From: Chitinophaga sp. SYP-B3965
GTDB lineage: Bacteria; Bacteroidota; Bacteroidia; Chitinophagales; Chitinophagaceae
Reading direction: 5' to 3'
Assembly: GCF_009647655.1 (NCBI RefSeq)
Contig: NZ_WJFD01000001.1
Span: 1,984,001-2,048,000 of the forward strand
Length of the DNA: 64,000 nt
Shown piece after piece: positions 12,643-30,603 of this stretch. How positions within the stretch are numbered: position 1 is the stretch's first letter; every line of letters starts with the position of its first letter. The position numbers and the translations under genes are program-made. A model generated the notes under the pieces. The model did no database searches and was not told the origin of the DNA. It saw only the letters and a list, made by a program, of their open reading frames with translations.

Positions 12643-12656
12643 CTTAAACGTTTAAG
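12643..12656. promoter_or_regulatory. LacI-family operator upstream of the lacI-type gene (site 1)
   Basis: A perfect 14-bp palindrome, CTTAAACGTTTAAG, ends 14 bases before the start codon of the LacI-family gene. The same sequence stands before the SusC gene at 27968-27981, and close variants precede the GH172 and GH116 genes. A central CG in a palindrome is typical of LacI-family operators. Its place at the gene's own start implies autoregulation. Confidence 0.8.
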
Positions 12657-12670
12657 CATATTTTTATTCC

Positions 12671-13681
12671 ATGAAGAAGAAGGTCTCCTTAAAAGATATT
12701 GCCCAGGAAGCCGGTGTATCCACTGCACTGGTATCTTATGTGCTCACCAACAAAGAGGAGAAAGCGAGAGTAGGCCAGGAAATGGCCAAAAAGATCCGCA
12801 AGATAGCCCGCAAGCTCAACTATCAGCCCAACCACATTGCCCGCAGCCTCAAAAGCGGCCGGTCGGACACCATTGGCCTGATCGTGGCGGACATCTCCAA
12901 CCCCTTCTTCGCCAATATTGCCCGCACCATTGAAGACGAAGCCAAACGGAATAACTATACCGTGATCTTCGGCAGCTCTGATGAGAACGTGGATAAATCC
13001 CGGGACCTGATCAATGTACTGCTGAACCGTCAGGTAGACGGGCTCATACTCATTCCCACAGAAGGTTCCGAACAGCAGATCAAAACCCTGCAGAACCAGA
13101 ACGTGCCCTTCGTGCTGATAGACCGGTATTTTCCGGATATCCCGGCCAGCCACATCAGTATCAACAATTACGAATCCGCTTATAATGCTGTTTCCCATCT
13201 CATCAAAATGGGCCGCCAGCAGATAGGTATGATCGCCTATAAAACAGCGTTGCATCATATCAGCGAACGCAAACGCGGGTATATGGAAGCATTAACAGAT
13301 CAGAAGAAGAGCCTGATGAAACTGGCCCGGTATTCCCACTTAAAAGAAGATATCAAACTGGCCATCGATCAGCTGCTCAACGCCCGCAAACCCGCCGATG
13401 CCCTTTTCTTTGCCACAAACAGCCTGGCCATCGAAGGTTTAAAATATATCAATGAACTGGGGATCCGCGTGCCGGAAGATCTGGCCGTGGTGAGCTTTGA
13501 TGAAAGTGAAGCGTTTGACCTCTTCTACTCCCCCGTTACCTATGTAAGGCAACCCATCCTCGAAATGGGTAAAGAAGCCGTGCGCGTATTACTCGAACAA
13601 ATTAAAGATGCAGATAAACCCGCAGAACTGATCTGCATTGATACCGAACTCGTGATCAGAAAATCCTCAGGAAAAAAATAA
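12671..13681 (+). CDS. LacI family transcriptional regulator
   Basis: A 336-residue regulator. The N-terminal HTH (about 5-25, VSLKDIAQEAGVSTALVSYVL) and hinge helix (about 50-65, NYQPNHIARSLKSG) precede a periplasmic-binding-protein-like sensor (IGLIVADISNPFFANIARTIEDEA to LVIRKSSG). It opens the plus-strand cluster that continues with the GH172 operon 42 bases later. Operator-like palindromes lie directly before this gene, the GH172 operon, the SusC gene at 27928 and the GH116 gene at 30561, so it is the best candidate regulator of the whole 12.6-30.6 kb locus. The inducer is inferred to be a pentose or a product of its oxidation. Only 14 bases separate operator and ATG and there is no Shine-Dalgarno, so the mRNA may have a very short leader. 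Confidence 0.95.
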   Translation: MKKKVSLKDIAQEAGVSTALVSYVLTNKEEKARVGQEMAKKIRKIARKLNYQPNHIARSLKSGRSDTIGLIVADISNPFFANIARTIEDEAKRNNYTVIFGSSDENVDKSRDLINVLLNRQVDGLILIPTEGSEQQIKTLQNQNVPFVLIDRYFPDIPASHISINNYESAYNAVSHLIKMGRQQIGMIAYKTALHHISERKRGYMEALTDQKKSLMKLARYSHLKEDIKLAIDQLLNARKPADALFFATNSLAIEGLKYINELGIRVPEDLAVVSFDESEAFDLFYSPVTYVRQPILEMGKEAVRVLLEQIKDADKPAELICIDTELVIRKSSGKK

Positions 13682-13690
13682 ACAACTATT

Positions 13691-13706
13691 GCTTAATCGT
13701 TAAAGC
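13691..13706. promoter_or_regulatory. LacI-family operator upstream of the GH172 catabolic operon (site 2)
   Basis: GCTTAATCGTTAAAGC is an imperfect 16-bp palindrome centred on CG and ends 17 bases before the GH172 start codon. It keeps the outer GCTT/AAGC and central CG of the operator at 30588-30603. This is the most divergent of the four sites. Confidence 0.65.
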
Positions 13707-13723
13707 ATTAACACACAAAACGT

Positions 13724-14860
13724 ATGAAAAAACTGTTCCTCCTCTCACTGGCTGTCTCCCTTAGCTGGACGGCCTTCTCGCAGCAAACCTTTAACGGGCT
13801 GGACATGAACCTCGGCAATCTCTCCCGCCTCTCCGATGCCAAAACCCGGTCTATCAGTCCGGAGAATATCACCGGCGAACCTGGTAAAGGCGGCATGGCC
13901 ACACTGGATCAAGGCAATGCAAAGAATGCAGCAAGAGACCTGGGGCAGGGTTGGAAAGTAAATCCATACATTCATATTGAAGCGGGGAAAACTGTTACCC
14001 TCGCAGAGATCACCGGCTCCGGCGCTATCCAGCATATCTGGATGACACCCACCGGCAACTGGCGCTATTCCATCCTCCGTTTTTACTGGGATGATGAAAC
14101 CACTCCTTCCGTTGAAGTACCTGTAGGTGATTTCTTCGGTATGGGATGGGGTGAATATGCACAAATGAATTCCCTCGCTGTTACCGTAAATCCCGGCAGT
14201 GCATTTAACTGCTATTGGTCCATGCCCTTTCGCAAGAAGTGTAAGATCACGATGGAGAACATCAATACAGAACGTATGACGCTCTACTACCAGGTAGATT
14301 ACACCCTCACACAGGTACCGGAAGATGCGGCTTATTTTCATGCACAGTTCCGCCGCAACAATCCTGTGAAAGGCGCAGAGTTCACCATGATAGATGGCAT
14401 CAAAGGGAAAGGCCAGTACGTGGGTACTTATGTAGCATGGGGTGTGAACAATAATGGCTGGTGGGGTGAAGGTGAAATAAAGTTCTTTATGGACGGAGAT
14501 AACAAATTCCCTACTATCTGCGGTACCGGTACAGAAGATTATTTCTGCGGTTCCTACAACTTTGACAACAAAGGAAAATACCAGGAATTCTCCACGCCCT
14601 ACGCAGGGTTACACCAGGTGATCCGCCCGGATGGCCTATACAAATCGCAGCAACGTTTTGGCCTGTACCGCTGGCATATCATGGACCCTGTGCGTTTTGA
14701 GAAAGAATTGAAAATAACTATCCAGGACCTTGGCTGGCGCAGTGGCGGGCGTTATCTTCCACAGCAATCAGATATCAGCAGCGTAGTGTTCTGGTATCAG
14801 CGCGAGCCGCATGCACCGTTTCCTAAATTACAGGCAAAAGACGAATTAGAAGTAAACTGA
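13724..14860 (+). CDS. GH172 (DUF2961) glycoside hydrolase, secreted
   Basis: A 378-residue protein with Sec signal peptide (MKKLFLLSLAVSLSWTAFSQ) and a DUF2961 domain, classified as GH172. Known members act on furanosides: exo-alpha-D-arabinofuranosidases and alpha-D-fructofuranosidase / difructose dianhydride I enzymes. Signature stretches are GPG-like EPGKGGMAT, GSGAIQHIWMTP, VEVPVGDFFGMGWGE, FNCYWSMPFRKKCKITMEN and the strongly conserved CGTGTEDYFCGSYNF, where the acidic residues would sit at the active site. It heads the operon of pentose-oxidation enzymes (aldehyde dehydrogenase starts 1 base after its stop), so release and catabolism of the sugar are coupled. Together with the GH116 under the same operator this points to D-arabinofuranosides; fructofuranosides remain an alternative. 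Confidence 0.9.
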   Translation: MKKLFLLSLAVSLSWTAFSQQTFNGLDMNLGNLSRLSDAKTRSISPENITGEPGKGGMATLDQGNAKNAARDLGQGWKVNPYIHIEAGKTVTLAEITGSGAIQHIWMTPTGNWRYSILRFYWDDETTPSVEVPVGDFFGMGWGEYAQMNSLAVTVNPGSAFNCYWSMPFRKKCKITMENINTERMTLYYQVDYTLTQVPEDAAYFHAQFRRNNPVKGAEFTMIDGIKGKGQYVGTYVAWGVNNNGWWGEGEIKFFMDGDNKFPTICGTGTEDYFCGSYNFDNKGKYQEFSTPYAGLHQVIRPDGLYKSQQRFGLYRWHIMDPVRFEKELKITIQDLGWRSGGRYLPQQSDISSVVFWYQREPHAPFPKLQAKDELEVN

Positions 14861-14861
14861 C

Positions 14862-16400
14862 ATGGAAACTATCGATCTGGCGGTAAAACAAGCCGCACAA
14901 GCTTTTACAACTTATAAAAAAATATCTCCCCGGCAACGCGCAGCCTTTTTACGCGCCATTGCAGAAGAGATCAATACATTGGGAGATGAATTGATCAACA
15001 CAGCCTCTGCAGAAAGCAACTTACCACTCCCCCGTTTGCAGGGAGAAAGAGATCGCACCACAGGGCAGCTACGGCTGTTCGCGGACCTGATCACTGAAGG
15101 TTCCTGGGTAAATGCACGCATTGACAAAGGCACACCGGATATACGGCAAATGCAGATCCCGCTTGGCGTGATCGGTATCTTTGGTGCCAGTAATTTCCCA
15201 TTGGCCTTCTCTGTAGCCGGTGGTGATACGGCTGCTGCACTTGCTGCAGGCAGTACTGTTGTATTCAAAGCACATCCTGCACATCCGCAGACTTCAGATC
15301 TTGTGGCAAATGCGATCCTCACCGCTGCTAAGAACACCGGTTTGCCGGAAGGTGTATTCTCTTTAATTCATGGTGCTACTATTGATACCGGCCAGCAGCT
15401 CGCCCTTCATCCGCAGTTGTCTGCCATCGCTTTTACAGGCTCATTCAGGGGCGGCAAGGCCCTCTATGATACAGCCACCCGCAGAGTTGTGCCCATTCCT
15501 GTTTATGCGGAAATGGGCAGCGTAAACCCGGTTTTCTTTCTGCCCCGTGTGCTGAAAGAAAAAGGAGAAGCATTAGCTGCACAGTTTCTGCAATCCCTTA
15601 CCATGGGCGTGGGTCAGTTCTGTACGAACCCGGGAGTGTTTTTGACGTTGAATGGAACTGATAAATCAGTTCCATTCAACGGACCATCTTCTTCTTATGA
15701 AGGAATGGAAAACAAACAGGCATCCGTTTCATCAAATGAAACAAACGCTTCCCCCTCATCAAACAGATCTGGAACAGATCTGTTCCTCCCCACCCTGCAA
15801 AAAGGAATCGCAGCAATGCCCACCGGACGCATGTTAACTCCCGGAATCCTGGAGGCTTACAACAGCGGCATCAACAGCCTGCGGCAGGCAGGCGCCCAAT
15901 TACTTGGAAAAGCGCCTGCCACCGCACACCAGGCATCTCCTGCCCTTTTACAGATCAGCGCCACACAGGCACTGGAAGACCCGGCCCTCTGCCATGAAGT
16001 GTTCGGGCCCTCTTCTTTGCACATCAGTGCCAACAGTAAAGAAGAATTATTCCAGCTCGCCAATGCCCTGGAAGGCCAGCTCACCGCCACTATCCACGGT
16101 ACGGAAGAAGACCTTCATGAGTACGCAGAACTGGTAGACATCCTCCGGGAAAAAGCCGGCAGGATCGTCATCAACGGTTTTCCTACAGGCGTAGCCGTTA
16201 ACCATGCCATGGTACACGGCGGCCCATGGCCTGCCACCACTCCCGCAGCAGGCACATCAGTTGGCTCATCTGCCATCTACCGCTTCTGCAGGCCCGTCTG
16301 CTACCAGGACTTCCCCGCATACCTTTTACCACCTGAGCTGCAGGACGAAAACCCACTCGGCATATGGCGCTTATTCAACGGAAACTTTTCTAAAACGTAA
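14862..16400 (+). CDS. alpha-ketoglutarate-semialdehyde (2,5-dioxovalerate) dehydrogenase with internal insertion
   Basis: A 512-residue NAD(P)-dependent aldehyde dehydrogenase oxidising 2,5-dioxopentanoate to 2-oxoglutarate, the last step of non-phosphorylative pentose (and related sugar acid) oxidation. Visible motifs: PLGVIGIFGASNFPLAFSVAG, GSTVVFKAHPAHPQTSDLV, AFTGSFRGGKAL, general base Glu217 in AEMGS and catalytic Cys254 in GQFCTNPG; the C-terminus GFPTGVAVNHAMVHGGPWPAT is typical of the KGSADH subgroup. Between LNG and TDLFL (about residues 264-303) there is a Ser/Asn-rich segment roughly 35 residues longer than I expect, encoded by a run of three perfect hairpins. The frame stays intact, so the enzyme may still be active. 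The start lies 1 base after the GH172 stop. Confidence 0.93.
   Translation: METIDLAVKQAAQAFTTYKKISPRQRAAFLRAIAEEINTLGDELINTASAESNLPLPRLQGERDRTTGQLRLFADLITEGSWVNARIDKGTPDIRQMQIPLGVIGIFGASNFPLAFSVAGGDTAAALAAGSTVVFKAHPAHPQTSDLVANAILTAAKNTGLPEGVFSLIHGATIDTGQQLALHPQLSAIAFTGSFRGGKALYDTATRRVVPIPVYAEMGSVNPVFFLPRVLKEKGEALAAQFLQSLTMGVGQFCTNPGVFLTLNGTDKSVPFNGPSSSYEGMENKQASVSSNETNASPSSNRSGTDLFLPTLQKGIAAMPTGRMLTPGILEAYNSGINSLRQAGAQLLGKAPATAHQASPALLQISATQALEDPALCHEVFGPSSLHISANSKEELFQLANALEGQLTATIHGTEEDLHEYAELVDILREKAGRIVINGFPTGVAVNHAMVHGGPWPATTPAAGTSVGSSAIYRFCRPVCYQDFPAYLLPPELQDENPLGIWRLFNGNFSKT
15647..15786 (+). repeat. palindrome-rich in-frame insertion inside the aldehyde dehydrogenase gene
   Basis: Three perfect inverted repeats follow one another: GTTGAATGGAACTGA (15647-15661) with its complement at 15666-15680, loop TAAA; GTTTCAT (15726-15732) with ATGAAAC (15736-15742); and the 16-bp palindrome GGAACAGATCTGTTCC (15771-15786). 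The outer two share TGGAAC[T/A]GAT as a near direct repeat about 118 bases apart. The stretch matches the extra Ser/Asn-rich segment of the protein. It looks like a small palindromic element that entered in frame. Confidence 0.7.
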
Positions 16401-16407
16401 ATTATTT

Positions 16408-17178
16408 ATGGACCTGGGATTAAAAGATAAGATCATCATAGTAACAGGTGGCGCCAAAGGAATTGGAGCAGCTATTTCAGCCGTACTCGCAGCAGAAGGC
16501 GCCTTCCCCGTGATCATCGGAAGGAACGAAGAAGACAATCTCCAACACCTGGCCCATATCGGCAAAGGCGGACAGATAACTGCTGAGCTAACAGGTCCCG
16601 AAGCCTGCAAAACCGCAGTAGAAGCTATCGTAAATCAATACGGAAGAATAGACGGCCTTGTGAACAATGCCGGCGTAAACGATGGCGTTGGCCTCGAATC
16701 CGGTTCTTACGAAGCATTTATGCAATCATTGCACCGCAACGTAGTGCACTATTATCTCATCGCACATCATGCGCTGCCTTACCTGAAAAAAAGCAAAGGC
16801 GCTATTGTGAACATCACCTCCAAAACCGCAGAAACCGGCCAGGGCAACACCTCCGGTTATGCAGCCGCCAACGGAGGCAGAAACGCACTCACCCGCGAAT
16901 GGGCGGTAGAATTACTCCCCTACAGCATCCGCGTAAATGCGATAGTGGTAGCAGAATCATGGACGCCCTTATACGAAAGCTGGATCAATACTTTTGAAGA
17001 TAAAGAAACCAAACTCGCCGGCATCGTAGCAGGCATACCACTGGAAAAAAGAATGACCACGCCGGAAGAGATCGCCAATATGGCAGCCTTCCTGTTATCG
17101 GAGAAGTCCAGCCACACCACCGGCCAGCTCATCCATGTGGACGGCGGTTATGTGCACCTGGACAGAGCTTTAAAATAG
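16408..17178 (+). CDS. SDR family oxidoreductase, L-fucose/D-arabinose dehydrogenase-like, YxxxN variant
   Basis: A 256-residue short-chain dehydrogenase, proposed to oxidise the free sugar (D-arabinose or L-fucose type) to the lactone at the start of the oxidative pathway. I use ATG 16408; the frame is open further upstream inside the dehydrogenase gene, but MDLGLKDKIIIVTGGAKGIG is the natural N-terminus. Cofactor loop TGGAKGIG, NNAG at about 86-89, Ser138 in ITSKT and Tyr151 are present. The position of the catalytic Lys (YxxxK) is Asn155 (codon at 16870-16872, AAC). A downstream DGGYVH is typical. It lies 7 bases after the dehydrogenase and 8 before the dehydratase. A later oxidation step, as in L-fucose routes, is the alternative. 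Confidence 0.85.
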   Translation: MDLGLKDKIIIVTGGAKGIGAAISAVLAAEGAFPVIIGRNEEDNLQHLAHIGKGGQITAELTGPEACKTAVEAIVNQYGRIDGLVNNAGVNDGVGLESGSYEAFMQSLHRNVVHYYLIAHHALPYLKKSKGAIVNITSKTAETGQGNTSGYAAANGGRNALTREWAVELLPYSIRVNAIVVAESWTPLYESWINTFEDKETKLAGIVAGIPLEKRMTTPEEIANMAAFLLSEKSSHTTGQLIHVDGGYVHLDRALK

Positions 17179-17186
17179 ATCACAAC

Positions 17187-18806
17187 ATGCCACAACAAAT
17201 ATTAAAGATCCATCCAACAGATAATGTGTGGGTAGCCCTGCAGGACATTCCCGCAGGCACTACCGTGCAAGGCGTCACCGCCCTGCGCGACGTAGCCGCC
17301 AAACATAAGTTAACCGCTGCGTTCATTGCGAAGGACAGTCCCGTTGTCATGTACGGTGTGCTGGTTGGCTTAGCCAATGAAGACCTCGCTAAAGGCGAAC
17401 TGCTCACCACAAAGAACATCCGCCATGCCTCCGGGAATTTTGCCGTGAAAGAAGAAAGGAAAACCAGCTGGGATACACCGGATATTTCCCGCTGGAAAGA
17501 CCGTCACTTTATGGGTTATCACCGCACAGACGGACGTGTGGGCACCGGCAATTACTGGGTGATCATCCCACTCGTATTCTGCGAAAACCGCAATGTGCAG
17601 ATGCTGCACAAAGTATTGGTAAAAGAACTCGGCTACCGCAAATACAATCCTTACGAAGAAATGCTGCAACAATTATTGCAGGAAGTAAAAGAAGGTAAAG
17701 AAGAAGCAGATATACTCATCGCCCCACCCCGGCGCAGGGCTTTTGAAAACATAGACGGCATAAAACTACTCTCCCATACTTTAGGCTGCGGCGGCACCAA
17801 AGATGATGCCCGCACGCTTTGCGGCCTGTTAGCCGGATACATCACTCATCCTAATGTGGCTGGCGCTACGGTACTCAGCCTGGGCTGCCAGAACGCACAG
17901 ATAGATATGCTGAAAGAAGAGATCGAAAAAAGAGTACCGGGTTTCGACAGAACGGTGATCTGCCTGGAACAGCAAAAGATAGGATCCGAAAAAGTGCTAA
18001 TGGAACAGGCGCTGCAGCTCACTTTTGAAGGCCTCAGCAAAGCCAACAAACAACAACGCCAGCCTGCGCCGTTGAACAAACTCATCATCGGCATGGAATG
18101 CGGCGGCTCAGACGGATTCTCCGGCATCTCTGCCAACCCTGCCGTAGGAAGGGTTTCAGACATCCTCGTAGCACTCGGCGGCTCCGTGATCTTATCTGAA
18201 TTCCCTGAGCTCTGCGGTGTTGAACAGGAACTGAGTGACCGTTGCATCAACACAGACCTCGCCACCCGTTACACACAATTGATGCGTGATTATGCCAGCA
18301 GAGCAGAAGCTGTAGGCTCGGGATTTGATTCCAATCCTTCTGCCGGCAACATCCGCGACGGCCTCATTACAGACGCGATCAAATCCGCCGGTGCGGCAAA
18401 AAAAGGAGGCTCCTCTCCTGTGACGGATGTGATAGATTACCCGGGAAGGGTACAACGGCCCGGTCTTGCATTGCTTTGCACACCCGGCAGCGATGTGGAA
18501 TCCACCACAGCGGAAGTAGGGGCTGGTGCCAACATCGTGCTCTTCACTACTGGTTTGGGTACACCCACCGGCAATCCTATTACACCGGTGCTCAAACTAT
18601 CCACCAACACTAAGCTGGCCAACAAAATGGAGGATATCATAGATATAGATACCGGCACGATCATCAATGGAAAAGAATCTATCAACGAAGCAGCAGAGCG
18701 GATCTTAAATTTAGTGATCGATACCGCCAGCGGTTTATACACCGCACGGGCACAAGTGCTGGAACAGGATGATTTCATTCCCTGGAAAAGAGGGGTTTCT
18801 TTATAA
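17187..18806 (+). CDS. UxaA family (altronate/galactarate-type) sugar-acid dehydratase
   Basis: A 539-residue fusion of an N-terminal SAF domain (about 1-90, IHPTDNVWVALQDIPAGTTV) with the UxaA catalytic part. Family signatures are YHRTDGRVGTGNYW, SHTLGCGGTKDD, HPNVAGATVLSLGCQNAQ, the C-terminal GMECGGSDGFSGISANPAVG, and FTTGLGTPTGNPITPVLKLS. Members dehydrate aldonates such as D-altronate or D-galactarate with Fe(II) or Mn(II) to 2-keto-3-deoxy acids. Beside a KGSADH and a KdaD-like FAH enzyme, the likely substrate here is a pentonate such as D-arabinonate. In the well known routes that step uses IlvD/EDD- or enolase-type dehydratases. It is the fourth gene of the GH172 operon. No lactonase is seen nearby. 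Confidence 0.9.
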   Translation: MPQQILKIHPTDNVWVALQDIPAGTTVQGVTALRDVAAKHKLTAAFIAKDSPVVMYGVLVGLANEDLAKGELLTTKNIRHASGNFAVKEERKTSWDTPDISRWKDRHFMGYHRTDGRVGTGNYWVIIPLVFCENRNVQMLHKVLVKELGYRKYNPYEEMLQQLLQEVKEGKEEADILIAPPRRRAFENIDGIKLLSHTLGCGGTKDDARTLCGLLAGYITHPNVAGATVLSLGCQNAQIDMLKEEIEKRVPGFDRTVICLEQQKIGSEKVLMEQALQLTFEGLSKANKQQRQPAPLNKLIIGMECGGSDGFSGISANPAVGRVSDILVALGGSVILSEFPELCGVEQELSDRCINTDLATRYTQLMRDYASRAEAVGSGFDSNPSAGNIRDGLITDAIKSAGAAKKGGSSPVTDVIDYPGRVQRPGLALLCTPGSDVESTTAEVGAGANIVLFTTGLGTPTGNPITPVLKLSTNTKLANKMEDIIDIDTGTIINGKESINEAAERILNLVIDTASGLYTARAQVLEQDDFIPWKRGVSL

Positions 18807-20054: not shown

Positions 20055-20060
20055 TGACCA

Positions 20061-20912
20061 ATGCAGATCATCCGTCTCTATAAAACCGCTGCCACCATAT
20101 TGGTGCATTACAATGAACAATATTATGCCATCAACACCAGCTGGAATAATTTCGTGAACAGGAAAAACCTGTTTGCATGTATCCTCAAAGATCTTTCTGA
20201 TCAGACATCCATTGATACGATCACCGCGGAAAGCATCATTGGCAATGAACTGCAAGCCCCCATTGCCACGCAGGAAGTATGGGCAGCCGGCGTAACGTAT
20301 TTCCGCAGTCGTACGGCACGCATGGAAGAATCAGAAGGCGGCGCTGATTTTTACGATAAAGTATATGCAGCAGAAAGACCTGAGCTCTTTTTTAAAGCCA
20401 CCCCGCACCGGGTATCCGGCCATAACCAGGTAGTGTTCATCCGCGAAGATTCTACCTGGGATGTACCGGAACCGGAACTCACCCTCTTTGTGAGCAGCCA
20501 TGGTACCATTGAAGGATATACCATTGGCAACGACATGAGTTCCCGCAGTATTGAAGGAGAAAATCCGCTCTACCTCCCACAGGCAAAAGTTTATGAAAAA
20601 TGCGCTGGCCTTGGGCCCTGCCTGATCGTAACGGATACACCTATCCCTCCGGATACGCTCATCAAAATGGCCATCTACCGCAAAGAAGAAATGAAATACT
20701 CAGATAGCGTTCCCATCAGCCAGATGAAACGCGGCCACCAGGAACTGGTGGACTTCCTCTTCAGAGGATGTGCCTTCCCCGATGGTTGTTACCTGATGAC
20801 GGGCACCTGTCTTGTTCCCGATAACAGCTTCACCTTACAGGATAACGACCGTGTAGAGATCAGCATAGACCACATCGGTACGTTGATCAATGATGTTCAG
20901 ACACTACATTAA
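20061..20912 (+). CDS. FAH-family hydrolase/dehydratase, 2-keto-3-deoxy-D-arabinonate dehydratase-like
   Basis: A 283-residue fumarylacetoacetate-hydrolase-family enzyme. The metal ligands expected for the family are present: the two Glu of [11 protein letters not shown] and the Asp of [11 protein letters not shown]. The downstream stretch [16 protein letters not shown] followed by GLGPC is the hallmark of the subgroup that includes 2-keto-3-deoxy-D-arabinonate dehydratase (KdaD). The Asp usually after the Arg (SSRD) is Ser here. The reaction would turn 2-keto-3-deoxypentonate into 2,5-dioxopentanoate, exactly the substrate of the aldehyde dehydrogenase in the same operon. It sits 6 bases after the lipoprotein gene and 12 before the permease. 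Confidence 0.9.
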
Positions 20913-23117: not shown

Positions 23118-24886
23118 CCAACGTTTTGTACCAGGTTACGGTTCTTATTAATTTCCTCTTGCTGCAAGGGCCATAGATAATGCTTCGGTGCAATGAACAC
23201 CCGCTTCTCTATCACCGTACGTTTATAAAAATTGTTATCGCCCAGATTAGTGCCCGCGCCAATGTTCATTCCATGAATTTCTTTACTGTCAATCACCGCG
23301 GCTATCTTCCATCTGCGCGTATCAAAGTAACGATGCGTTTCAAATGCCAGTTCTATCCTCCGTTCATGCCTGATCTTTTCCCTCATTTCATCCTGACTTA
23401 ATCCTGCGGGCAATACAGGCAGCCCGGAGCGTTCCCGGATCAGGTTCACGTATTTATATACATCTGGTACAGCGCCATCCATTTCATTCAGCGCCTCTGC
23501 ATAATTCAGATAAGATTCTCCTAACCTGTAATAAATAAACGTATTCAGGGAGAACCTGTTCTGGAAAATATCAGAAGTAGGGTTCACCATTTTCTTCATC
23601 AGGTAACCGGAAATGCAATAATCAGAACCTGCACGTTTCCTGCCATCCAGCCCTTCAAACCAGAACTGTATGCCCCTTCCTTTCCAGATAGCGCCATTGA
23701 AATTGATGCTCGCATAAAACCGCGGTTCCCGGCCCACATACATATTACTCACGCCGGCAGGATAGTAATCCAGCGGATGTTTCGCCGCAGCATATCCCGC
23801 TTCCACATAACCGGACCCTGCATTGATAATGGGCGAACCATCTGCGTTATAACCATTCACCGGCCGTAAACCATTCGCCATTTCATAATCATCCACCAGT
23901 TCCTGCGTAGGACAGAAAATAGAGAATCCCCCATAACTGATCGGATTACTGCAACGTTCAAAGTGAGAATGTTCACCGGCATTACGGGCAAACAGCACTT
24001 CGGAATTATTGCGCTCAATGAATACCTCCTGGTAATTCCTCACCGGATCGTTATTCGCTGCGCGGTACAATTTATACCCGTTAGCTTCTACCCCATCGAT
24101 ACATTCCTTGGCGGCCACTGCCGCCTTACGCCATCTTTCTTTATCAAAAGCAGGAAAAAGCTGCAAACCTTCGTTATCCTTTATCCCCGTGTAATCAGGA
24201 TTACCATTCCAAAGCGGACTCGCCATGTACAACAACGCCTGTGCCTTCAATGCCAGTGCAGCAGCTTTGGTAACACGCCCCATTTTATCCGCCCCTACTT
24301 TCCATTCCAGTAATGGCACTGCCTTATCACATTCCTTCGTGATAAATTCAATTACTTTATCAATGGGCTGTCTCCTGATCTTGGAATAATCTTCATTAAG
24401 CGTATAAGCATGATCCCCGATGGGAATAGCGCCATAAATGCGTGCCAGCATAAAGTGGAAGAAAGCGCGCAGGAAAGTGGCTTCCCCTATCCACCGGTTC
24501 CGCTCTGTTTCATCCATGGGCACATCTGCCACATTATCCAGGAAGAGATTGGTTTTGCGGATGCCCTCATACATAAAACCCCATACATCCGGGAAGTAAT
24601 CATTGGCACTCCAGGCGCCGGAGTTCAGTAAGTGAGAATAGGCGCCCAGGAAAGTGATCTCCATTTCGTCACTGGCGCCGGTAAAGGGATTACGCTGATC
24701 CCAGTCTGCCGCACCCAGCATAACGGGCACGTTGTTATACGCCGAAGTGAGGAAGGATTCCGCATATTTCCTTTCGGAAAATACCTTTTTAATATCCAGG
24801 TCTTCATCCGGTGCTTTTTTAAGATAGTCTTTGGTGCATGATGCTGTTAAGAGCAATATGGTGATTAAAACAAGGAACTTGTTCAT
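23111..24886 (-). CDS. SusD/RagB family nutrient-binding lipoprotein
   Basis: A 591-residue lipoprotein with lipobox Cys17 (MNKFLVLITILLLTASC). SusD hallmarks are WGFMYEGIRKTNLFLDNV near the N-terminus, GEATFLRAFFHFMLARIYGAIP, AALALKAQALLYMASPLWNG, and the C-terminal REKIRHERRIELAFETHRYFDTRRWKI and HYLWPLQQEEINKNRNLVQNVGW. It is the surface lid of the SusC gene 21 bases upstream. The two form the outer membrane uptake unit of the LacI-operator locus, followed by an overlapping secreted-protein gene. Confidence 0.96.
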   Translation of the reverse strand: MNKFLVLITILLLTASCTKDYLKKAPDEDLDIKKVFSERKYAESFLTSAYNNVPVMLGAADWDQRNPFTGASDEMEITFLGAYSHLLNSGAWSANDYFPDVWGFMYEGIRKTNLFLDNVADVPMDETERNRWIGEATFLRAFFHFMLARIYGAIPIGDHAYTLNEDYSKIRRQPIDKVIEFITKECDKAVPLLEWKVGADKMGRVTKAAALALKAQALLYMASPLWNGNPDYTGIKDNEGLQLFPAFDKERWRKAAVAAKECIDGVEANGYKLYRAANNDPVRNYQEVFIERNNSEVLFARNAGEHSHFERCSNPISYGGFSIFCPTQELVDDYEMANGLRPVNGYNADGSPIINAGSGYVEAGYAAAKHPLDYYPAGVSNMYVGREPRFYASINFNGAIWKGRGIQFWFEGLDGRKRAGSDYCISGYLMKKMVNPTSDIFQNRFSLNTFIYYRLGESYLNYAEALNEMDGAVPDVYKYVNLIRERSGLPVLPAGLSQDEMREKIRHERRIELAFETHRYFDTRRWKIAAVIDSKEIHGMNIGAGTNLGDNNFYKRTVIEKRVFIAPKHYLWPLQQEEINKNRNLVQNVGW

Positions 24887-24907
24887 CTGGTAAGTTTGAA
24901 GGTTGAA

Positions 24908-27900
24908 TTAAAACGAAAGCTGTGCCCCGAAATTGATGCTGCGCTGTAAAGGATATCCCCCTGTGCCGTAATTCGATTCCGGATCTATCACTTTTATCTT
25001 ATCCCAGGTGGCCAGGTTATAACCGTTGATGAACAGGCGGATACCTTCCAGCCCGCGTTTTATGGCAAAATTGTAAGCGATCTCCGCACTCTTCAGCCGG
25101 ATGTAGGATGCATCCTGCAGGAACAAGGTGGAGGTCCTGTTGTTATTAGGATTCTGTAGTGGTGAAACACGGGGATATCTGGCATCAGTATGCTGCGGTG
25201 TCCAGCGGTTATCGTAATACTCACGCATAATATTGTAAGTACCTGATCCCATCTGGAAGGCATACATGGAAGGCCCGTCTACAAATAAACTGGTACGTGC
25301 CACGCCGGTAAAGAAAAAGCTCAGTTCAAAACCCTTGTAGCCAAAACTCGCACCTGCTCCATACACCATCTGTGGTGTTCTGGGATAACCGATCGGCACA
25401 CGGTCGTAATCATCTACTACACCGTCATTGTTATAATCCTGGTATTTGATATCCCCCGGCCTTACCTGGTCCATGAAATTCTGCTTCGGACTTTTCTCTA
25501 TATCCGCCTGGTCTTTAAAGAAGCCCAGTGCTATCAATCCCATCGGCTGATCTATCGGCTGGTCAACGAAGGATTGATAAGCGTATTTCGGGATGGGATC
25601 ATCGTTCTGTGTGCAGATACTTTTAGCATAAGTGAAAGTACCCCTGAAGTTGTAATAGAAACCTTTGCGGGTAGTATGCCTTACTTCCAGCAATGCATCA
25701 ATGCCGGAGTTCTTTGCTTTCCCCAGGTTGGCATAAGGCAGCGTCCAGGGATAATAACCTGTTACGCGTGGTATAACACCCCGCTGGATGAGGATACCTT
25801 CCCGGTCTTCTTTAAACGCATCCACCTGTAAACTGATGGTGCCTTTCAGCAATTCCAGGTCCATCCCGATGTTTGCCTTTGTAGCTACTTCCCAGGTTAC
25901 ATCATCATTGCCTATCTGCGCTTCTTCAAAACCCTGGTAGAAACGCTGGTTATCCCCAAAGAAATAGGACTGCCCCTGGCGATTGATCGTAGTGAGGAAT
26001 AAGAAGCGTCGTGCGCCTATCTGGTCATTACCTACCTGCCCGTAAGATCCTCTTATTTTGAGGCTGGAAATAGCGTTTACATGCCAGAACTTTTCATTGC
26101 TGATGATCCAGCCCGCAGAAACGGAAGGAAAGAAGCCGTATTGTTTCCCTTCGGGGAAATTCTCTGAACCGTTATATCCTGCATTCACTTCTGCGAGGTA
26201 ACGGTTCTTAAAGTTATAAGTGATCCGCCCTGCCAGCCCCTGCCGCCTGTAGGGCAGGTTATTTAAAGTAGTTCCTGCCGTGAGATCAATGTATTCCCTG
26301 CGGTTGCCTAACAGCATGCCCGTTAGTGTATGATCCCCGAAAGTGCGGTTGTAATTGACGCCCACCTCTGTATAATATGCGCGGTTAGCACCGTTATGCA
26401 GCACATAGGTCATGGGCTGCTCTTCCCGGATAGGCGGCGAAGAATACTGGTCATTCCCATTCGCATCCTTACCCAGGTACTGTTTGATGGCATAAGGCTT
26501 GATACGGTCTGTGGAAGCGGAATAATAGTGGTCATAAGCAAATAATCCCCGTACAGAAAGCCCTGGTGTTACGAGCCTGGAAAGATCCCATTTGCCACCA
26601 AAAGTTCCCTGCAGTGTGTTCCTGTCCTGCCGCGTATAGCCTGATTGTGTAACCAGCCCCCAGGGGTTGTTCTGCAGGTAGGAAGTGGAAGCCCCGGCAA
26701 CAGAACCATCAGGATTCAATTTCGGATAATTGATCGGCGAAGTGATCTTCAGTGCATCAAAGATCCCGGGAGCACCCGTGCCCGGATAATTGCCTTTCTG
26801 TATCACGCCGCCAATACCCAGTTCTATGCTGATAGTTTTAGAAACATTGATATCCACATTGGAACGAAAGTTATACCGTTGCATCTGTGCATTGGTTTTA
26901 TAGGCATTCTTAGGGTCCTGTTTGTAGATGCCATTCAGCACTGTATAACCCACATTCGTATAATACTTCACAATTTCATTACCGCCGGAAACACTCAGGT
27001 TATTGATACTCTGGAAAGTGTTCTTCTTCAGCACGGCATCCGTCCAATCTACATTCGGATAGAGATAAGGGTCAGAACCATCTTTGAACTTCTGCAGTTC
27101 TGCTGCTGTATACCGGGCGGGCAGGCCATTGTTGGCCAGCGCTTCATTGATCAGCCCTGCATATTCAGGCCCGTTGATATAATCAGGCAGCCGCAAAGCC
27201 TGCAGACTGGCATTCTCCGTACGGAAGATCACTTTCGGTTTGCCGGTAACTCCTCTCTTCGTAACGATCAGGATCACACCATTTGCTCCCCTCACCCCAT
27301 ATACCGCGGTAGCAGATGCATCTTTCAGAATAGAAAAACTTTCAATTTCCTGCGTGTTGATATTGTTGATATCCCGTTCCACTCCATCTACCAGTATCAA
27401 CGGCGCCCTGTTGGCCCAGGTTCCAAAACCACGGATAAATACCGCCGCCCCGTCATAACCCGGCTCTCCGGAACTTTGCCGTGTGATGATCCCCGGCATA
27501 CTGCCCGCCAGCGCATTGGACAAAGAAGGCGTAGAGATCCGCTGGATGTTATTCACCGGCACACTGGAGATAGCACCTGTTACCGTCATTTTCTTTTGCT
27601 TTCCGAAACCTACCACCACCACATCACCCAGTGTGCTGGATTGCTGCTTTAATTGTATGTTCAGGATGCTGTTATTACCTACCGTGATAGCCTGCGGTTC
27701 ATACCCTACATAGGTATATACCAGCATGGCTTCATTGCCGGATACTTTTATGGCATAAGTACCATCAGGGTAAGTAGTGGTGCCCACAGGTGTGCCCTGC
27801 ACTACGATGGTTACTTCAGATAATGGTTTACCATCTTCGGCAGAAGTGACCTTGCCCGTGATCACTTTCTGCGCATAGCTGACGGTAATGGACGTGAGGA

Positions 27901-27928
27901 AGAAGACGAATGCGGATAAGCATTTCAT
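24908..27928 (-). CDS. SusC/RagA family TonB-linked outer membrane transporter
   Basis: A 1006-residue transporter with signal peptide ending at about residue 19 (VSYAQ), a carboxypeptidase-regulatory-like domain (about 22-95, VITGKVTSAEDGKPLSEVTI), the junction LGDVVVVGFGKQKK, a plug with APLILVDGVERDINNI and EIESFSILKDASATAVYG, and the barrel. It lacks a STN domain, in keeping with regulation by a LacI-type repressor and not a FecR relay. A perfect operator palindrome (27968-27981) lies 39 bases upstream. The GH116 gene ends 113 bases upstream on the same strand. It would import oligosaccharides released from the polymer that the GH172/GH116 enzymes finish. Confidence 0.96.
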   Translation of the reverse strand: MKCLSAFVFFLTSITVSYAQKVITGKVTSAEDGKPLSEVTIVVQGTPVGTTTYPDGTYAIKVSGNEAMLVYTYVGYEPQAITVGNNSILNIQLKQQSSTLGDVVVVGFGKQKKMTVTGAISSVPVNNIQRISTPSLSNALAGSMPGIITRQSSGEPGYDGAAVFIRGFGTWANRAPLILVDGVERDINNINTQEIESFSILKDASATAVYGVRGANGVILIVTKRGVTGKPKVIFRTENASLQALRLPDYINGPEYAGLINEALANNGLPARYTAAELQKFKDGSDPYLYPNVDWTDAVLKKNTFQSINNLSVSGGNEIVKYYTNVGYTVLNGIYKQDPKNAYKTNAQMQRYNFRSNVDINVSKTISIELGIGGVIQKGNYPGTGAPGIFDALKITSPINYPKLNPDGSVAGASTSYLQNNPWGLVTQSGYTRQDRNTLQGTFGGKWDLSRLVTPGLSVRGLFAYDHYYSASTDRIKPYAIKQYLGKDANGNDQYSSPPIREEQPMTYVLHNGANRAYYTEVGVNYNRTFGDHTLTGMLLGNRREYIDLTAGTTLNNLPYRRQGLAGRITYNFKNRYLAEVNAGYNGSENFPEGKQYGFFPSVSAGWIISNEKFWHVNAISSLKIRGSYGQVGNDQIGARRFLFLTTINRQGQSYFFGDNQRFYQGFEEAQIGNDDVTWEVATKANIGMDLELLKGTISLQVDAFKEDREGILIQRGVIPRVTGYYPWTLPYANLGKAKNSGIDALLEVRHTTRKGFYYNFRGTFTYAKSICTQNDDPIPKYAYQSFVDQPIDQPMGLIALGFFKDQADIEKSPKQNFMDQVRPGDIKYQDYNNDGVVDDYDRVPIGYPRTPQMVYGAGASFGYKGFELSFFFTGVARTSLFVDGPSMYAFQMGSGTYNIMREYYDNRWTPQHTDARYPRVSPLQNPNNNRTSTLFLQDASYIRLKSAEIAYNFAIKRGLEGIRLFINGYNLATWDKIKVIDPESNYGTGGYPLQRSINFGAQLSF

Positions 27929-27967
27929 AAACGTGTTAGTTTTGGTTATAGGAGTAATAAGTACTTA

Positions 27968-27981
27968 CTTAAACGTTTAAG
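27968..27981. promoter_or_regulatory. LacI-family operator upstream of the SusC/SusD unit (site 3)
   Basis: The perfect 14-bp palindrome CTTAAACGTTTAAG, identical to the site before the LacI-family gene 15.3 kb away, 39 bases upstream of the SusC start codon on the minus strand. An identical site this far away in a promoter position is strong evidence for a shared regulator. Confidence 0.85.
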
Positions 27982-28041
27982 CAAATATCATTTTGAATAC
28001 CAAATAAAACGTGGATGGACGTGCTGTTACATCGTTGGCTG

Positions 28042-30561
28042 TTAGGTCAGTTGAACGCTCTTACCGGAAACTATTACCTGTTTCACGGGTATTGTGCCAT
28101 ATGCTATAGTTAATGATGGTTTTCCTTTTTGCAGGCTCACAGTACCGAAACCTTTGTCTGTGGAAATGAAACTGGTAAAATCCCCTACTTTGGAATCAAT
28201 AAAAAGGGTACCGTCTACCGCATCAAAACGAACGCCGGTTAATCCCTGCAACATGCCATAACTGCTCATGGCCCTGGCATACCAGTGCCCGCATTCATAT
28301 TCATTGAAAGGATTACGTACCGCACCATCGTAACGGTTGCGGCAGGCCTTCACAATATCCAGCCCTTTTTCTACTTCTCCCATGAACATCAGGTGAGAAG
28401 CCACCTGGTATTCAATGCCTGTCCATACTTCATTGCTGTACACAAATGGTAAAGACAACATGCCGCCTTTGGGCCAGGAGCATAATAACAATCCCCCTTC
28501 GTTCCCTAAAGCAAAAGTGGGCCGTTGCGGATTCACATGTGCGCTGAGATCTTTCTTCAGGTTGTATTTATGTACAGCCAGTAAATGACTTTTTGTTTTG
28601 GCCACATCCACCGGCTCTTCCATCCCGCACACCCGTGCGATCCAGGAACCCAGGATGCCATCAGAAAGGCAGCCTGTACCGTATTGGTACTTAGGGCCTT
28701 CTTTTTGCAGGAGTTGTTGCGCCTCTGCGGAATATTGCGTTTGGAAGGATTGCGCTTTCACGGGGTCTGGTGCATTCAATCCTGTCCATTGTATCTTTTG
28801 TATAAAGTATTCGCCGTTGTACAATTCCGTTTCCAGGTATTGTTTGCCTTTTTCATACAGCGAAGTATATTCCGTTACATCATTACCAAGAGATTTTCCC
28901 ATCAGCGAAATGGCATGTAATGCGCCGAGATAGAAACTCGTACACATGCCCGTAGGGCCCCAGAATTCAATATCATAGGTATTGTGATGCGGCTCTTCCA
29001 CGATGCCTTTCTTGCGGGGGTCCCAGGTGCGGATGCAATAATCCATACTTGTTTTCACTGCAGGATAGATCTGTTTCAGCCATTCATTATCGCCGCTGAT
29101 GCGCCATTCCCGGTGCACTTTCATGATGCCGCCTAACTGTCCGTCTGCTGCTGCGTGGAAATTATGCACTAAGGGAGAGATGGGGATATTCGCACGGAAA
29201 CCCTGATGCCCGTCTGCATTCTGGTTCTCTTTGAACTCTGTATTGCGCAGGCTTCTTTCCAGCGCCGGAAATAAATGGGGAACGGCCTGTGCATAATTCC
29301 ACACATGCGTGCAGGAACCATGGCAGCTGCCCCAGTTATCTCCGGAACCTTCCCAGCACCAGAAGCGGCCATCATACTGCCGCATAACGGTAGCAGATTT
29401 CAGTATGGTCAGATTGGCGGCAACCGCTTCCACTACTTCCGGCGGTAAAGTACTTTTATAAAATGCGTCTGAGAATAATGTTGTTTTCTTTTGCAGTGTT
29501 TCATAGTTATCCTTCCAGTAATCCGCTACTTCTTCTATGCTTTTAAACTTACTGCTATACCATGGTTTGTGGAATCCCGTGGTTGCATCATCTCCTATAT
29601 GTAATTTGGAATCCGGCACATACCAGGCCATCATCAAACGAACTACTTTCTTCTCTCCCGGTTTCAACCGGAAAGGCACGAATAAAGAGCCGCCCGGTGC
29701 ATCTTTTTCTACCGGTGCATTGCTTTTAACCGTACCATCTTTCACCGCATTCCATACCATGCTCAGCGGATCGAACCAACCGCCCCGGAACCAGCAATGG
29801 TCTACCACCGTATTGTTATCAGTAGTATAGATCGCAAAGCGACCTTGCTTTTCCGGGGCATTGGTGATGGCTTCCTGTGATAAGATGAATCCGTTCTGAA
29901 TAGGTTTAACTGCATTACCAGCATCTCCCTGCCGCATAAAGTTGCGGGCATTGTAAGAGAACACGATCTCTTCCGTGGTAGTACCAGTATTCGTAAAATG
30001 ATATTCTAATGCGCCAACGGGCAAGCTGGAATTATCTTCATCTGTAGGCACAAAAGGACTCCATCCTTTAATACGTACTGCTACCGGCATCGTAGCATCT
30101 TTCAAAGTGATCTCTGCAAAAGGGAAACGGGCTTTAAACTCCGCTGTGGCAAAACGCGGAAGGCCCCAGGTAGCGCCACCGGTTCCACCAAGACCAGCAT
30201 CCCGCTGACCGAATTTCTTCCAGTCCGGGATGATCTGCTCCAGCACTTTTGCCCCCTTTCCTTTTATACTGATAGCCGCAAACATGGCCGGCTCAAAGAA
30301 CATTTCAGGGTTGTGGCGGATGCTCATATGAGAGATAGCACCCGTGCCTTCCAGGCAGAACATACCCGCACCGATCCCTCCAATGGGAAATGCAATGCGG
30401 CTGATATCTTTTCCTTTATAGGTGTCGTTAAAATTACGGGCGCCGGGAGCCTTTTCTTTTGACGTTCCTTTCGCTAAAACCACCGCAGGCAGCGCAGTTG
30501 CGCCAATTGCCCCTAATGTAAAGTTCTTTAAGAAATTACGCCGGTTATTACGTGCTTTCAT
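28042..30561 (-). CDS. GH116 family glycoside hydrolase, Tat-type signal
   Basis: An 839-residue protein. The N-terminus NRRNFLKNFTLGAIGATALPAVVLA fits a twin-arginine signal. The N-terminal domain (about 45-330, ISRIAFPIGGIGAGMFCLEGTGAI) is the GBA2-type beta sandwich; the C-terminal (alpha/alpha)6 domain follows from about 370 (HVWNYAQAVPHLFPALERSLR, HNTYDIEFWGPTGMC, TGCLSDGILGSWIARV, ECGHWYARAMSSYGML). The Asp in LSDGILGSW aligns by eye with the family acid/base region. GH116 includes beta-glucosidases, beta-xylosidases and an exo-beta-D-arabinofuranosidase; the operon partners favour the last. An operator-like site lies 26 bases upstream of its start. The SusC gene follows with its own operator. 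Confidence 0.9.
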   Translation of the reverse strand: MKARNNRRNFLKNFTLGAIGATALPAVVLAKGTSKEKAPGARNFNDTYKGKDISRIAFPIGGIGAGMFCLEGTGAISHMSIRHNPEMFFEPAMFAAISIKGKGAKVLEQIIPDWKKFGQRDAGLGGTGGATWGLPRFATAEFKARFPFAEITLKDATMPVAVRIKGWSPFVPTDEDNSSLPVGALEYHFTNTGTTTEEIVFSYNARNFMRQGDAGNAVKPIQNGFILSQEAITNAPEKQGRFAIYTTDNNTVVDHCWFRGGWFDPLSMVWNAVKDGTVKSNAPVEKDAPGGSLFVPFRLKPGEKKVVRLMMAWYVPDSKLHIGDDATTGFHKPWYSSKFKSIEEVADYWKDNYETLQKKTTLFSDAFYKSTLPPEVVEAVAANLTILKSATVMRQYDGRFWCWEGSGDNWGSCHGSCTHVWNYAQAVPHLFPALERSLRNTEFKENQNADGHQGFRANIPISPLVHNFHAAADGQLGGIMKVHREWRISGDNEWLKQIYPAVKTSMDYCIRTWDPRKKGIVEEPHHNTYDIEFWGPTGMCTSFYLGALHAISLMGKSLGNDVTEYTSLYEKGKQYLETELYNGEYFIQKIQWTGLNAPDPVKAQSFQTQYSAEAQQLLQKEGPKYQYGTGCLSDGILGSWIARVCGMEEPVDVAKTKSHLLAVHKYNLKKDLSAHVNPQRPTFALGNEGGLLLCSWPKGGMLSLPFVYSNEVWTGIEYQVASHLMFMGEVEKGLDIVKACRNRYDGAVRNPFNEYECGHWYARAMSSYGMLQGLTGVRFDAVDGTLFIDSKVGDFTSFISTDKGFGTVSLQKGKPSLTIAYGTIPVKQVIVSGKSVQLT

Positions 30562-30587
30562 GATAGTAGTAGTTCAGTTTTCATAAC

Positions 30588-30603
30588 GCTTAAACGATTA
30601 AGC
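30588..30603. promoter_or_regulatory. LacI-family operator upstream of the GH116 gene (site 4)
   Basis: GCTTAAACGATTAAGC is a 16-bp near-palindrome (one mismatched pair) with the same half-sites as the 14-bp perfect sites at 12643 and 27968. It ends 26 bases before the GH116 start codon on the minus strand. Confidence 0.8.

Follow-up and report, generated by a model that had tools for sequence, protein, structure and literature searches.

D-Arabinan is a polymer of the cell walls of mycobacteria and corynebacteria. In Dysgonomonas gadei on D-arabinan, ten proteins of the PUL42 locus are abundant, with a predicted fucose isomerase coming first (PMC10115798). PUL42 and the similar Dysgonomonas locus L134 encode GH172, GH116, DUF6786 and GH183 proteins and a fucose isomerase, and L134 also codes for a ribulokinase. 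The D-arabinan cluster of Microbacterium arabinogalactanolyticum combines an ExoMA1-type GH172 and an ExoMA2-type GH116, both signal-less, with GH183, an ABC transporter, an isomerase and a kinase (PMC10509167). A non-phosphorylative fate of D-arabinose, Route II, is described in Herbaspirillum huttiense and Paraburkholderia mimosarum, with a UxaA/GarD-family D-arabinonate dehydratase and an FAH-family 2-keto-3-deoxy-pentonate dehydratase; the D-arabinose dehydrogenase of P. mimosarum is an aldo/keto reductase, and the accessible part of that report describes no glycan-degrading genes (PMC6336799).

The locus of Chitinophaga sp. SYP-B3965 has the GH172, GH116 and DUF6786 proteins of PUL42 and L134, together with a SusC/SusD pair of the L134 type (49% for SusC, 48% for SusD). 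Unlike them, it is devoid of GH183 and fucose isomerase and harbours an oxidative cassette and a 313-residue protein. It shares both exo-enzyme types with the M. arabinogalactanolyticum cluster, from which it differs by SusC/SusD, signal-like N-termini on the exo-enzymes and an oxidative route. Its dehydratase families are like those of Route II, but a short-chain dehydrogenase (SDR) replaces the aldo/keto reductase, and the genes are linked to glycosidases, in a member of the Bacteroidota. The locus appears to be a variant of known D-arabinan loci in which exo-enzymes of established types are joined to Route II, a D-arabinose pathway already described in bacteria.

Layout and operators of the locus

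In the window, i.e. the whole 64,000-nucleotide stretch analysed, open reading frames and family profiles define eight genes on the plus strand (12671-22193) and four on the minus strand (22176-30561), with a palindromic operator upstream of lacI, GH172, susC and GH116.

12641..12658, no strand: operator 1, upstream of lacI; palindrome, 1 mismatch
12671..13681, plus: LacI-family regulator (Pfam LacI and Peripla_BP_3)
13690..13707, no strand: operator 2, upstream of the catabolic operon (GH172 first); 1 mismatch
13724..14860, plus: GH172 (DUF2961, E 5e-98), predicted exo-alpha-D-arabinofuranosidase
14862..16400, plus: aldehyde dehydrogenase, predicted 2-oxoglutarate-semialdehyde dehydrogenase (KGSADH) from clade and context
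16408..17178, plus: SDR, predicted D-arabinose (L-fucose-type) 1-dehydrogenase (NF052481)
17187..18806, plus: UxaA/GarD-family dehydratase, predicted D-arabinonate dehydratase (PF20629, PF04295 and SAF in a single chain)
18825..20054, plus: DUF6786 protein (PF20583, E 1e-152), lipoprotein-type N-terminus by eye
20061..20912, plus: FAH-family enzyme, predicted 2-keto-3-deoxy-D-arabinonate dehydratase (KdaD-like; match to KdaD 2q18)
20925..22193, plus: FucP-type sugar:H+ symporter (TIGR00885)
22176..23117, minus: 313-residue protein, no Pfam family; predicted galactose-mutarotase-like supersandwich
23111..24886, minus: SusD-type lipoprotein (PF07980, PF14322)
24908..27928, minus: SusC-type TonB-dependent transporter (Plug, CarbopepD_reg_2)
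27966..27983, no strand: operator 3, upstream of susC; 1 mismatch
28042..30561, minus: GH116, predicted exo-beta-D-arabinofuranosidase (ExoMA2 match)
30587..30604, no strand: operator 4, upstream of GH116; 1 mismatch over the 18-mer, a perfect match to the 16-mer core

We set the start of the SDR gene at 16408; the mechanical open reading frame begins earlier, at 16204. Open frames and profile matches agree with the genes and families described in the first-pass annotation. The catabolic operon that it listed is present but includes an additional gene, for the DUF6786 lipoprotein, and the nearby GH116 and SusC/SusD/unknown unit lies on the minus strand (22176-30561). The single operator type that it proposed for the operon, GH116 and the susC unit was recovered as well: TGCTTAANCGNTTAAGCA occurs with 1 mismatch at 12641, 13690, 27966 and 30587. 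With up to 3 mismatches, it has five matches in the window, where 100 shuffles averaged 0.33; the fifth (3 mismatches) is inside susD. A scan of the complete genome (7.14 Mb) for GCTTAANCGNTTAAGC with at most 1 mismatch gave five places, four of them at this locus and the fifth just upstream of another LacI-family gene, while its reversed control pattern gave no occurrence under the same conditions. The operators upstream of lacI, GH172 and GH116 are each kept in all eight other genomes that harbour the cassette (at most 2 mismatches).

A SusC/SusD pair and glycosidases under common control characterize the polysaccharide utilization loci of Bacteroidota; the locus has these genes, and its shared operators point to such control. 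The LacI protein would occupy all four operators until a sugar signal releases it. We consider it likely that this lacI and four-operator cluster takes up D-arabinofuranosyl oligosaccharides and frees D-arabinose, which the non-phosphorylative Route II would probably oxidise to 2-oxoglutarate.

GH116, SusC/SusD and the endo step

In pairwise comparisons, GH116 scored 375 bits with ExoMA2 and 49 bits with the best beta-glucosidase chain, placing it nearer to the D-arabinofuranosidase, as anticipated. ExoMA2, of subfamily 4, has E431 as nucleophile, D557 as acid/base and R483 and H446 as specificity residues (PMC10509167). Given an offset of 4 between the ExoMA2 chain index and the numbering of that paper, E431, D557, R483 and H446 correspond to E404, D530, R456 and H419 of the window enzyme, all four being kept. 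We therefore predict an exo-beta-D-arabinofuranosidase of the ExoMA2 type. By eye, its N-terminus looks like a Tat signal.

The first-pass annotation had seen no GH183 endo-enzyme in the window, and this holds genome-wide: the GH183 (DUF4185) model gave no match in the Chitinophaga genome, nor in any named control genome, but reached an E value of 8e-93 in Dysgonomonas. A galactose-mutarotase-like supersandwich is predicted to span the whole chain of the 313-residue protein. This protein is a candidate for the missing D-arabinan step. It is doubtful that it founds a new D-arabinan enzyme family, endo-acting or removing branches or caps, that replaces GH183 in these loci, such that Bacteroidota would hold a second way to open actinobacterial D-arabinan, coupled to D-arabinose oxidation. 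As for DUF6786, its comparison with aldose epimerases yielded an hhalign probability of 3.5%, and its sole fold prediction is poor (pLDDT 34).

It is quite conceivable, if short of probable, that the cluster has no endo-enzyme and serves scavenging: other organisms would release or produce the D-arabino-oligosaccharides or short D-arabinofuranosyl glycans (e.g. of pilin or O-antigen type) on which it lives, and the 313-residue and DUF6786 proteins would be mutarotases or binding proteins. Such a lifestyle fits a genome with no GH183 match and a locus with only two exo-enzymes, and the fold predicted for the 313-residue protein is common to aldose 1-epimerases. The sugar motif also occurs in some lipopolysaccharides, and activity on pilin oligosaccharides of Pseudomonas aeruginosa PA7 is described (PMC10115798). 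Against it, outside of the cassette relatives the closest SusC/SusD pair among 80 GH172 loci is that of L134, which bears GH183, and all nine cassette genomes, including that of the window, keep GH116, an enzyme expected where actinobacterial arabinan with its beta-arabinofuranosyl caps is degraded. What weighs against the D-arabinan reading itself is that the SusC/SusD pair is kept in only three of the eight others (G001, G007 and G146); different pairs lie nearby in G002, G003, G138 and G008, and none was found in the stretch examined of G006. Both G006 and G008 are without FucP at the locus, and the 313-residue protein is absent altogether from them. Actinobacterial arabinan may be the target of the locus.

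The oxidative cassette and its alternation with FucI

The operon unites the family set of Route II, namely an aldose dehydrogenase, UxaA-type and FAH-type dehydratases and a KGSADH, with predicted substrates and a presumed identity for the latter. The best solved relatives of the aldehyde dehydrogenase are 3v4c (411 bits) and 1eyy (388 bits). It reaches no curated KGSADH cut-off, the top NCBIfam KGSADH model being far under its own, but we take its clade, together with the context, to denote a KGSADH, and we predict this function from clade and operon. The nearest solved relative of the UxaA protein is a galactarate dehydratase, so its substrate assignment remains a prediction that goes beyond sequence; the characterized D-arabinonate dehydratase of PMC6336799 belongs to the same superfamily. 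The FAH enzyme scored 189 bits with KdaD (2q18) and 55 with the next match, in keeping with the KdaD-like assignment made initially. FucP passes TIGR00885 (359 bits, cut-off 280), and no lactonase was found among the Pfam families of the operon proteins.

The SDR scored 410 bits with the L-fucose dehydrogenase model NF052481 (cut-off 300) and 303 bits with its best solved relative, 4gkb. PMC6336799 states that known L-fucose 1-dehydrogenases are dual-specific with D-arabinose, and it also reports a strictly L-fucose-specific SDR and, in Herbaspirillum, one encoded beside UxaA and FAH genes that is the 4-dehydrogenase of Route III. The role of the SDR is not certain, since both of the latter types exist. 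The Herbaspirillum precedent would make the SDR a 2-keto-3-deoxy-D-arabinonate 4-dehydrogenase and the FAH enzyme a hydrolase yielding pyruvate and glycolate. We deem this Route III highly unlikely, because the SDR is above the cut-off of the L-fucose dehydrogenase model, the FAH enzyme resembles KdaD, the aldehyde dehydrogenase would be superfluous and the operon encodes no other sugar 1-dehydrogenase.

Among 80 GH172 loci, the oxidative cassette is present in six and FucI in seven, with no locus harbouring both. The cassette thus alternates with FucI in related loci; FucI had no match in the Chitinophaga genome, while E. coli and Thermotoga maritima controls were detected. DUF6786 is conserved alongside both types of catabolic module: it is found in 13 of 13 loci with either module vs nine of 67 without (p 1.6e-9, kinship ignored). 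One locus, L147, has a divergent cassette with no SDR in place. On the GH172-DUF6786 scaffold of other Bacteroidota, FucI replaces the cassette, with a ribulokinase in three of the seven cases; four of the 80 loci have this kinase. The three ribulokinases scanned pass PRK04123, narrowly miss TIGR01234 (the two ribulokinase models used) and are far under the fuculokinase cut-off, which points to a pentose.

This bears on the idea that the cassette serves L-fucose or L-galactose, whose stereochemistry is alike, next to incidental GH172 and GH116 neighbours. The curated models name both the SDR and FucP for L-fucose, and the strictly L-fucose-specific SDR of PMC6336799 goes in the same direction. 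However, KdaD-type dehydration of a 6-deoxy acid leaves no aldehyde for the aldehyde dehydrogenase, related loci have ribulokinase rather than fuculokinase, the common operators join the cassette to GH172, SusC and GH116, and the scanned proteins gave no match to any fucosidase family. We find this reading most improbable.

GH172 and the proposed pathway

GH172 scored 432 bits with ExoMA1 and 151 bits with the fructosidase alphaFFase1. In a tree of 39 rows, for which long-branch warnings were raised, ExoMA1-type GH172s form a 27-row clade (support 97/97) without alphaFFase1, BACUNI_00161 and DgGH172c; the window enzyme groups with ExoMA1 and not with fructofuranosidases, the placement on which its first-pass assignment depended. 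The catalytic pair, assigned by alignment to DgGH172c and alphaFFase1, corresponds to E223 and E245 (ExoMA1 chain numbering) and is kept in the window enzyme and in all 89 non-reference rows. At ExoMA1 position 253, the window enzyme has Asn where alphaFFase1 has Gly; across the 89 rows, this position is Asn in 68, Asp in 12, Cys in six, Tyr in two and Ser in one. We predict that GH172 is an exo-alpha-D-arabinofuranosidase of the ExoMA1 type. Its N-terminus looks like a Sec signal by eye. Action on alpha-D-fructofuranosides in a fructan or dianhydride locus, suggested by the enzyme on which GH172 was reportedly founded (PMC8605356) and by a match of the LacI protein to a fructose-regulator model, at 187 of 390 bits and hence far under cut-off, is scarcely credible: fructose needs a Gly at the position of the kept Asn, which excludes that substrate, bit scores and tree agree, and no fructose-specific family was above cut-off among the proteins scanned.

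The D-arabinan and D-arabinose reading proposed at first is supported by the GH172 and GH116 scores, each far higher with the D-arabinofuranosidase than with all other solved relatives, by the kept specificity residues and by the KdaD-like FAH enzyme. SusC/SusD would take D-arabinofuranosyl oligosaccharides into the periplasm. From their close similarity to ExoMA2 and ExoMA1 and their kept specificity residues, GH116 is predicted to trim beta-D-arabinofuranosyl ends and GH172 alpha-D-arabinofuranosyl units. D-arabinose would enter the cytoplasm via FucP. As family and order suggest, the SDR would convert it to D-arabinonolactone, which would open spontaneously or through a lactonase not assigned here; the UxaA-type enzyme would yield 2-keto-3-deoxy-D-arabinonate, the KdaD-like enzyme 2-oxoglutarate semialdehyde and the aldehyde dehydrogenase 2-oxoglutarate.

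If this is true, some lineages degrade D-arabinan without GH183, the sole family of endo-enzymes in the D-arabinan papers cited, and the conserved, uncharacterized DUF6786 and 313-residue proteins are singled out as testable candidates for the missing steps. The locus would be a source of D-arabinan-active enzymes, and swapping cassettes within a conserved scaffold would connect D-arabinan breakdown to either of two unrelated D-arabinose pathways.

Gene order and a shared operator

The locus at 12641-30604 very probably mediates the uptake of D-arabinofuranosyl oligosaccharides, the release of D-arabinose and, likely, its oxidation. The gene positions proposed in the first-pass annotation were borne out by open frames and family scans.

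12641-30604, + strand genes: lacI, GH172, aldehyde dehydrogenase, SDR, UxaA-type dehydratase, DUF6786, FAH enzyme and FucP, in this order and nearly gapless
12641-30604, - strand genes: 313-aa protein (no Pfam family), SusD, SusC and GH116
30783-41726, - strand: adjacent locus lacking the operator and encoding GH28, GH106, TIM-barrel and PhyH-family proteins plus another SusD/SusC pair

The DUF6786 gene lies inside the + strand operon and was absent from that annotation. The proposal of a common operator type was confirmed by four palindromes, TGCTTAANCGNTTAAGCA, each with one mismatch, located upstream of lacI, GH172, susC and GH116. With up to three mismatches allowed, the shuffled window averages 0.33 matches to the pattern. 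The 16-base operator core (up to one mismatch) has five sites in the 7.14-Mb genome, four of them at this locus, and a reversed control pattern has no site across that genome. The fifth site, TGCTTAATCGATTTAGCA, is found just upstream of another LacI-family gene adjoining SusC/SusD-like genes (L138:6086-7120), which perhaps codes for a paralogous regulator.

Operator conservation was analysed in eight further genomes that encode all of GH172, aldehyde dehydrogenase, SDR, UxaA, DUF6786 and FAH, here called full-set genomes (G001, G002, G003, G006, G007, G008, G138 and G146). All eight have a site with up to two mismatches upstream of lacI, GH172 and GH116, and where SusC is placed between the 313-aa gene and GH116 (G001, G002, G007, G146), a site is found there too. 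As no operator of this type is present past 30604 within the window, the GH28 and GH106 genes (30783-35107) were excluded from the system. The adjacent locus has the appearance of an independent cluster for rhamnose-containing pectin.

Glycosidases and uptake

The GH172 protein scores 432 bits with ExoMA1 (8ic8), an exo-D-arabinofuranosidase of Microbacterium, against 151 for the fructosidase alphaFFase1, 135 for BACUNI_00161 and 132 for DgGH172c, with 56% identity to ExoMA1 across 346 aligned positions. According to PMC10509167, Asn253 of ExoMA1 versus Gly299 of alphaFFase1 explains the specificity for D-Araf or fructose, and the Asn is present at the equivalent position of the window protein. 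The expected placement with an arabinofuranosidase was recovered in a 39-row tree, in a 27-row clade holding ExoMA1 (97/97) with the other references outside, ExoMA1 and alphaFFase1 being long branches flagged by a tool warning. Fructofuranosides were rejected as substrates on these bit scores, the kept Asn and the tree. Since DgGH172c, an active D-arabinofuranosidase (PMC10115798), sits outside the ExoMA1 clade, the latter is not the sole home of this activity.

Similarly, GH116 is closest to an arabinofuranosidase rather than to beta-glucosidases, as had been proposed, with 375 bits for ExoMA2 of Microbacterium vs 49 for the best beta-glucosidase chain. Of the ExoMA2 residues, the nucleophile E431 aligns with E404 of the window protein, the acid/base D557 with D530, and R483 and H446, which set specificity, with R456 and H419. 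By eye, the N-termini suggest a Sec-type signal for GH172 and a Tat-type signal for GH116. Away from the locus, the same genome (L002, L004; C1:2263233, C8:814695) codes for a second, distant GH172 (35% identity) with Ser at the specificity position, and for a second GH116-family protein (31%).

We surveyed 80 loci from at least 594 GH172 matches, with many contigs cut. Among these 80 loci, the best pair for the window SusC and SusD outside the cassette relatives (49% and 48% identity, respectively, at full length) is that of a Dysgonomonas locus, L134, which also harbours GH116, DUF6786, FucI, ribulokinase and GH183. A 697-aa protein without a Pfam family is also encoded in this D-arabinan-type locus (L134:8101-10191). 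In the similar PUL42 of D. gadei, ten proteins are reported as abundant on D-arabinan growth and GH172, GH183 and a fucose isomerase are present (PMC10115798), as is a putative GH116 (PMC10509167). Given this closest pair and the gene contents of L134 and PUL42, SusC/SusD likely import D-arabinan-like oligosaccharides, with actinobacterial arabinan as their presumed natural source. The window-type pair is found in three of the eight full-set genomes (G001, G007, G146). FucP is absent from the locus in G006 and G008.

The oxidative cassette and its exchange with FucI

The FAH enzyme is KdaD-like, as first annotated (189 bits with KdaD, 55 for the next). The SDR exceeds the L-fucose dehydrogenase model cut-off (410 bits vs 300) and FucP that of the fucP model (359 bits vs 280), and the dehydratase is a UxaA/GarD protein in one chain. 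The solved relatives closest to the aldehyde dehydrogenase are 3v4c and 1eyy, which we place on the type III KGSADH side of the superfamily; with this protein, the curated KGSADH models all stay below their cut-offs.

Within the same 80 of at least 594 GH172 matches, UxaA and FAH occur together in six loci and FucI in seven, with no locus having both, and DUF6786 is present in all 13 of these loci vs 9 of the 67 others (p 1.6e-9, kinship ignored). Four of the 80 loci have ribulokinase, accompanied by FucI in three cases; the three ribulokinases scanned score above PRK04123, narrowly under TIGR01234 and far under the fuculokinase cut-off. An isomerase with a ribulokinase constitutes a pentose route, and thus the scaffold common to both cassette types points to D-arabinose. 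L-fucose as the main substrate was rejected on the KdaD-type enzyme, the aldehyde dehydrogenase and the ribulokinase of related loci. FucI has no match in the window's genome, the E. coli control being positive.

The linkage extends past Chitinophaga and its nearest kin, as L147, from a less closely related member of the family, has GH116 (62%), aldehyde dehydrogenase (47%), UxaA (61%), DUF6786 (48%), FAH (55%), FucP (51%) and GH172 (68%), though no SDR in its cassette. In Muricauda L083, an SDR at about 17.3 kb with 54% identity to the window dehydrogenase adjoins FucI and ribulokinase; this arrangement may be intermediate between the oxidative and the FucI cassette.

Not every FAH relative is a D-arabinose gene. 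The FAH survey covered 107 family genomes, of which 37 gave a total of 39 matches; in the 20 regions fetched, the neighbour is a ~572-aa family in eight, DUF6786 in six and neither in six. The single ~572-aa member scanned is an IlvD/Edd dehydratase, and these eight regions are taken to be D-xylose or L-arabinose routes. In other Chitinophagaceae, an FAH relative (about 51-55% identity) occurs with an IlvD/Edd-type dehydratase, joined in L155:6286-9074 by a gluconolactonase-like lipoprotein; such pairs are likely Weimberg-type clusters.

The oxidative D-arabinose biochemistry is already known for bacteria, as a UxaA/GarD-family D-arabinonate dehydratase and FAH-family KDP dehydratases have been characterised in Burkholderiales (PMC6336799). 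The same source refers to L-fucose 1-dehydrogenases that also accept D-arabinose, and itself found one strictly L-fucose-specific SDR and an SDR that is a 4-dehydrogenase of Route III. A title- and abstract-level literature search, mostly of non-subscription journals, found no published link of the oxidative route to D-arabinan enzymes in Bacteroidota, nothing on DUF6786, on Chitinophaga with D-arabinan or on non-phosphorylative D-arabinose use in Bacteroidota, and, for Chitinophaga and D-arabinofuranosyl, only the abstract of a beta-glucosidase study.

The 313-aa protein, DUF6786 and GH183

The reported lack of a visible GH183 endo-D-arabinanase holds genome-wide, with no match in the window's genome. 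That the 313-aa protein represents a new D-arabinan enzyme family replacing GH183 is unlikely. Among 16 genomes, seven have the 313-aa protein, four a full-length GH183, one both and six neither (p 0.58). Restricted to the 11 genomes with GH172 and GH116, the protein is found in six of the eight without full-length GH183 and in none of the three with it (p 0.06), and mutual exclusion is at best suggestive. Because partial DUF4185 matches over the cut-off (about 100-120 residues, 39-52 bits) are present in G001, G002, G003 (= G136) and G008, the absence of GH183 is not clean there.

Few of the searched genomes encode a member of the 313-aa family, which was detected in 1 of 395 phylum genomes, the window's own (at most five first-look candidates scored per genome, misses being possible), and in 4 of 30 relatives, own genome counted. 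In the database, 946 proteins match. The gene was mapped in G000, G001, G002, G003, G007, G023, G028, G138 and G146, always adjoining GH172 or GH116, most of these genomes having been picked for GH172 and only G138 and G146 (with G136 = G003) coming from a protein-alone search. It lies directly downstream of GH116 on the same strand in G003 and G138, and is therefore probably cotranscribed with it there. The protein is absent from the G006 and G008 genomes. No support was obtained for GH183 or DUF6786 as relatives of the 313-aa protein, nor from hhalign for DUF6786 as an aldose epimerase, and single-sequence prediction of the DUF6786 fold gave no usable model.

A Muricauda cluster (L133:808-11388) groups two DUF4185 proteins, of which one has ricin-type lectin domains plus a secretion tail, with GH172 and a 313-aa relative. 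The same locus as in the window is present in Chitinophaga cymbidii and C. polysaccharea; in the former, the 313-aa gene is separated from SusD by the gene of a GH123-domain protein (L126:18292-19941).

Altogether, the initial observation was right, and so was its interpretation as far as sequence can tell. The locus has no GH183 and includes two uncharacterised conserved proteins, DUF6786 and the 313-aa protein. Its exo-enzymes and oxidative pathway are known parts; what is new is that, as predicted from its genes, this pathway replaces the isomerase route in a D-arabinan-type locus of Bacteroidota.
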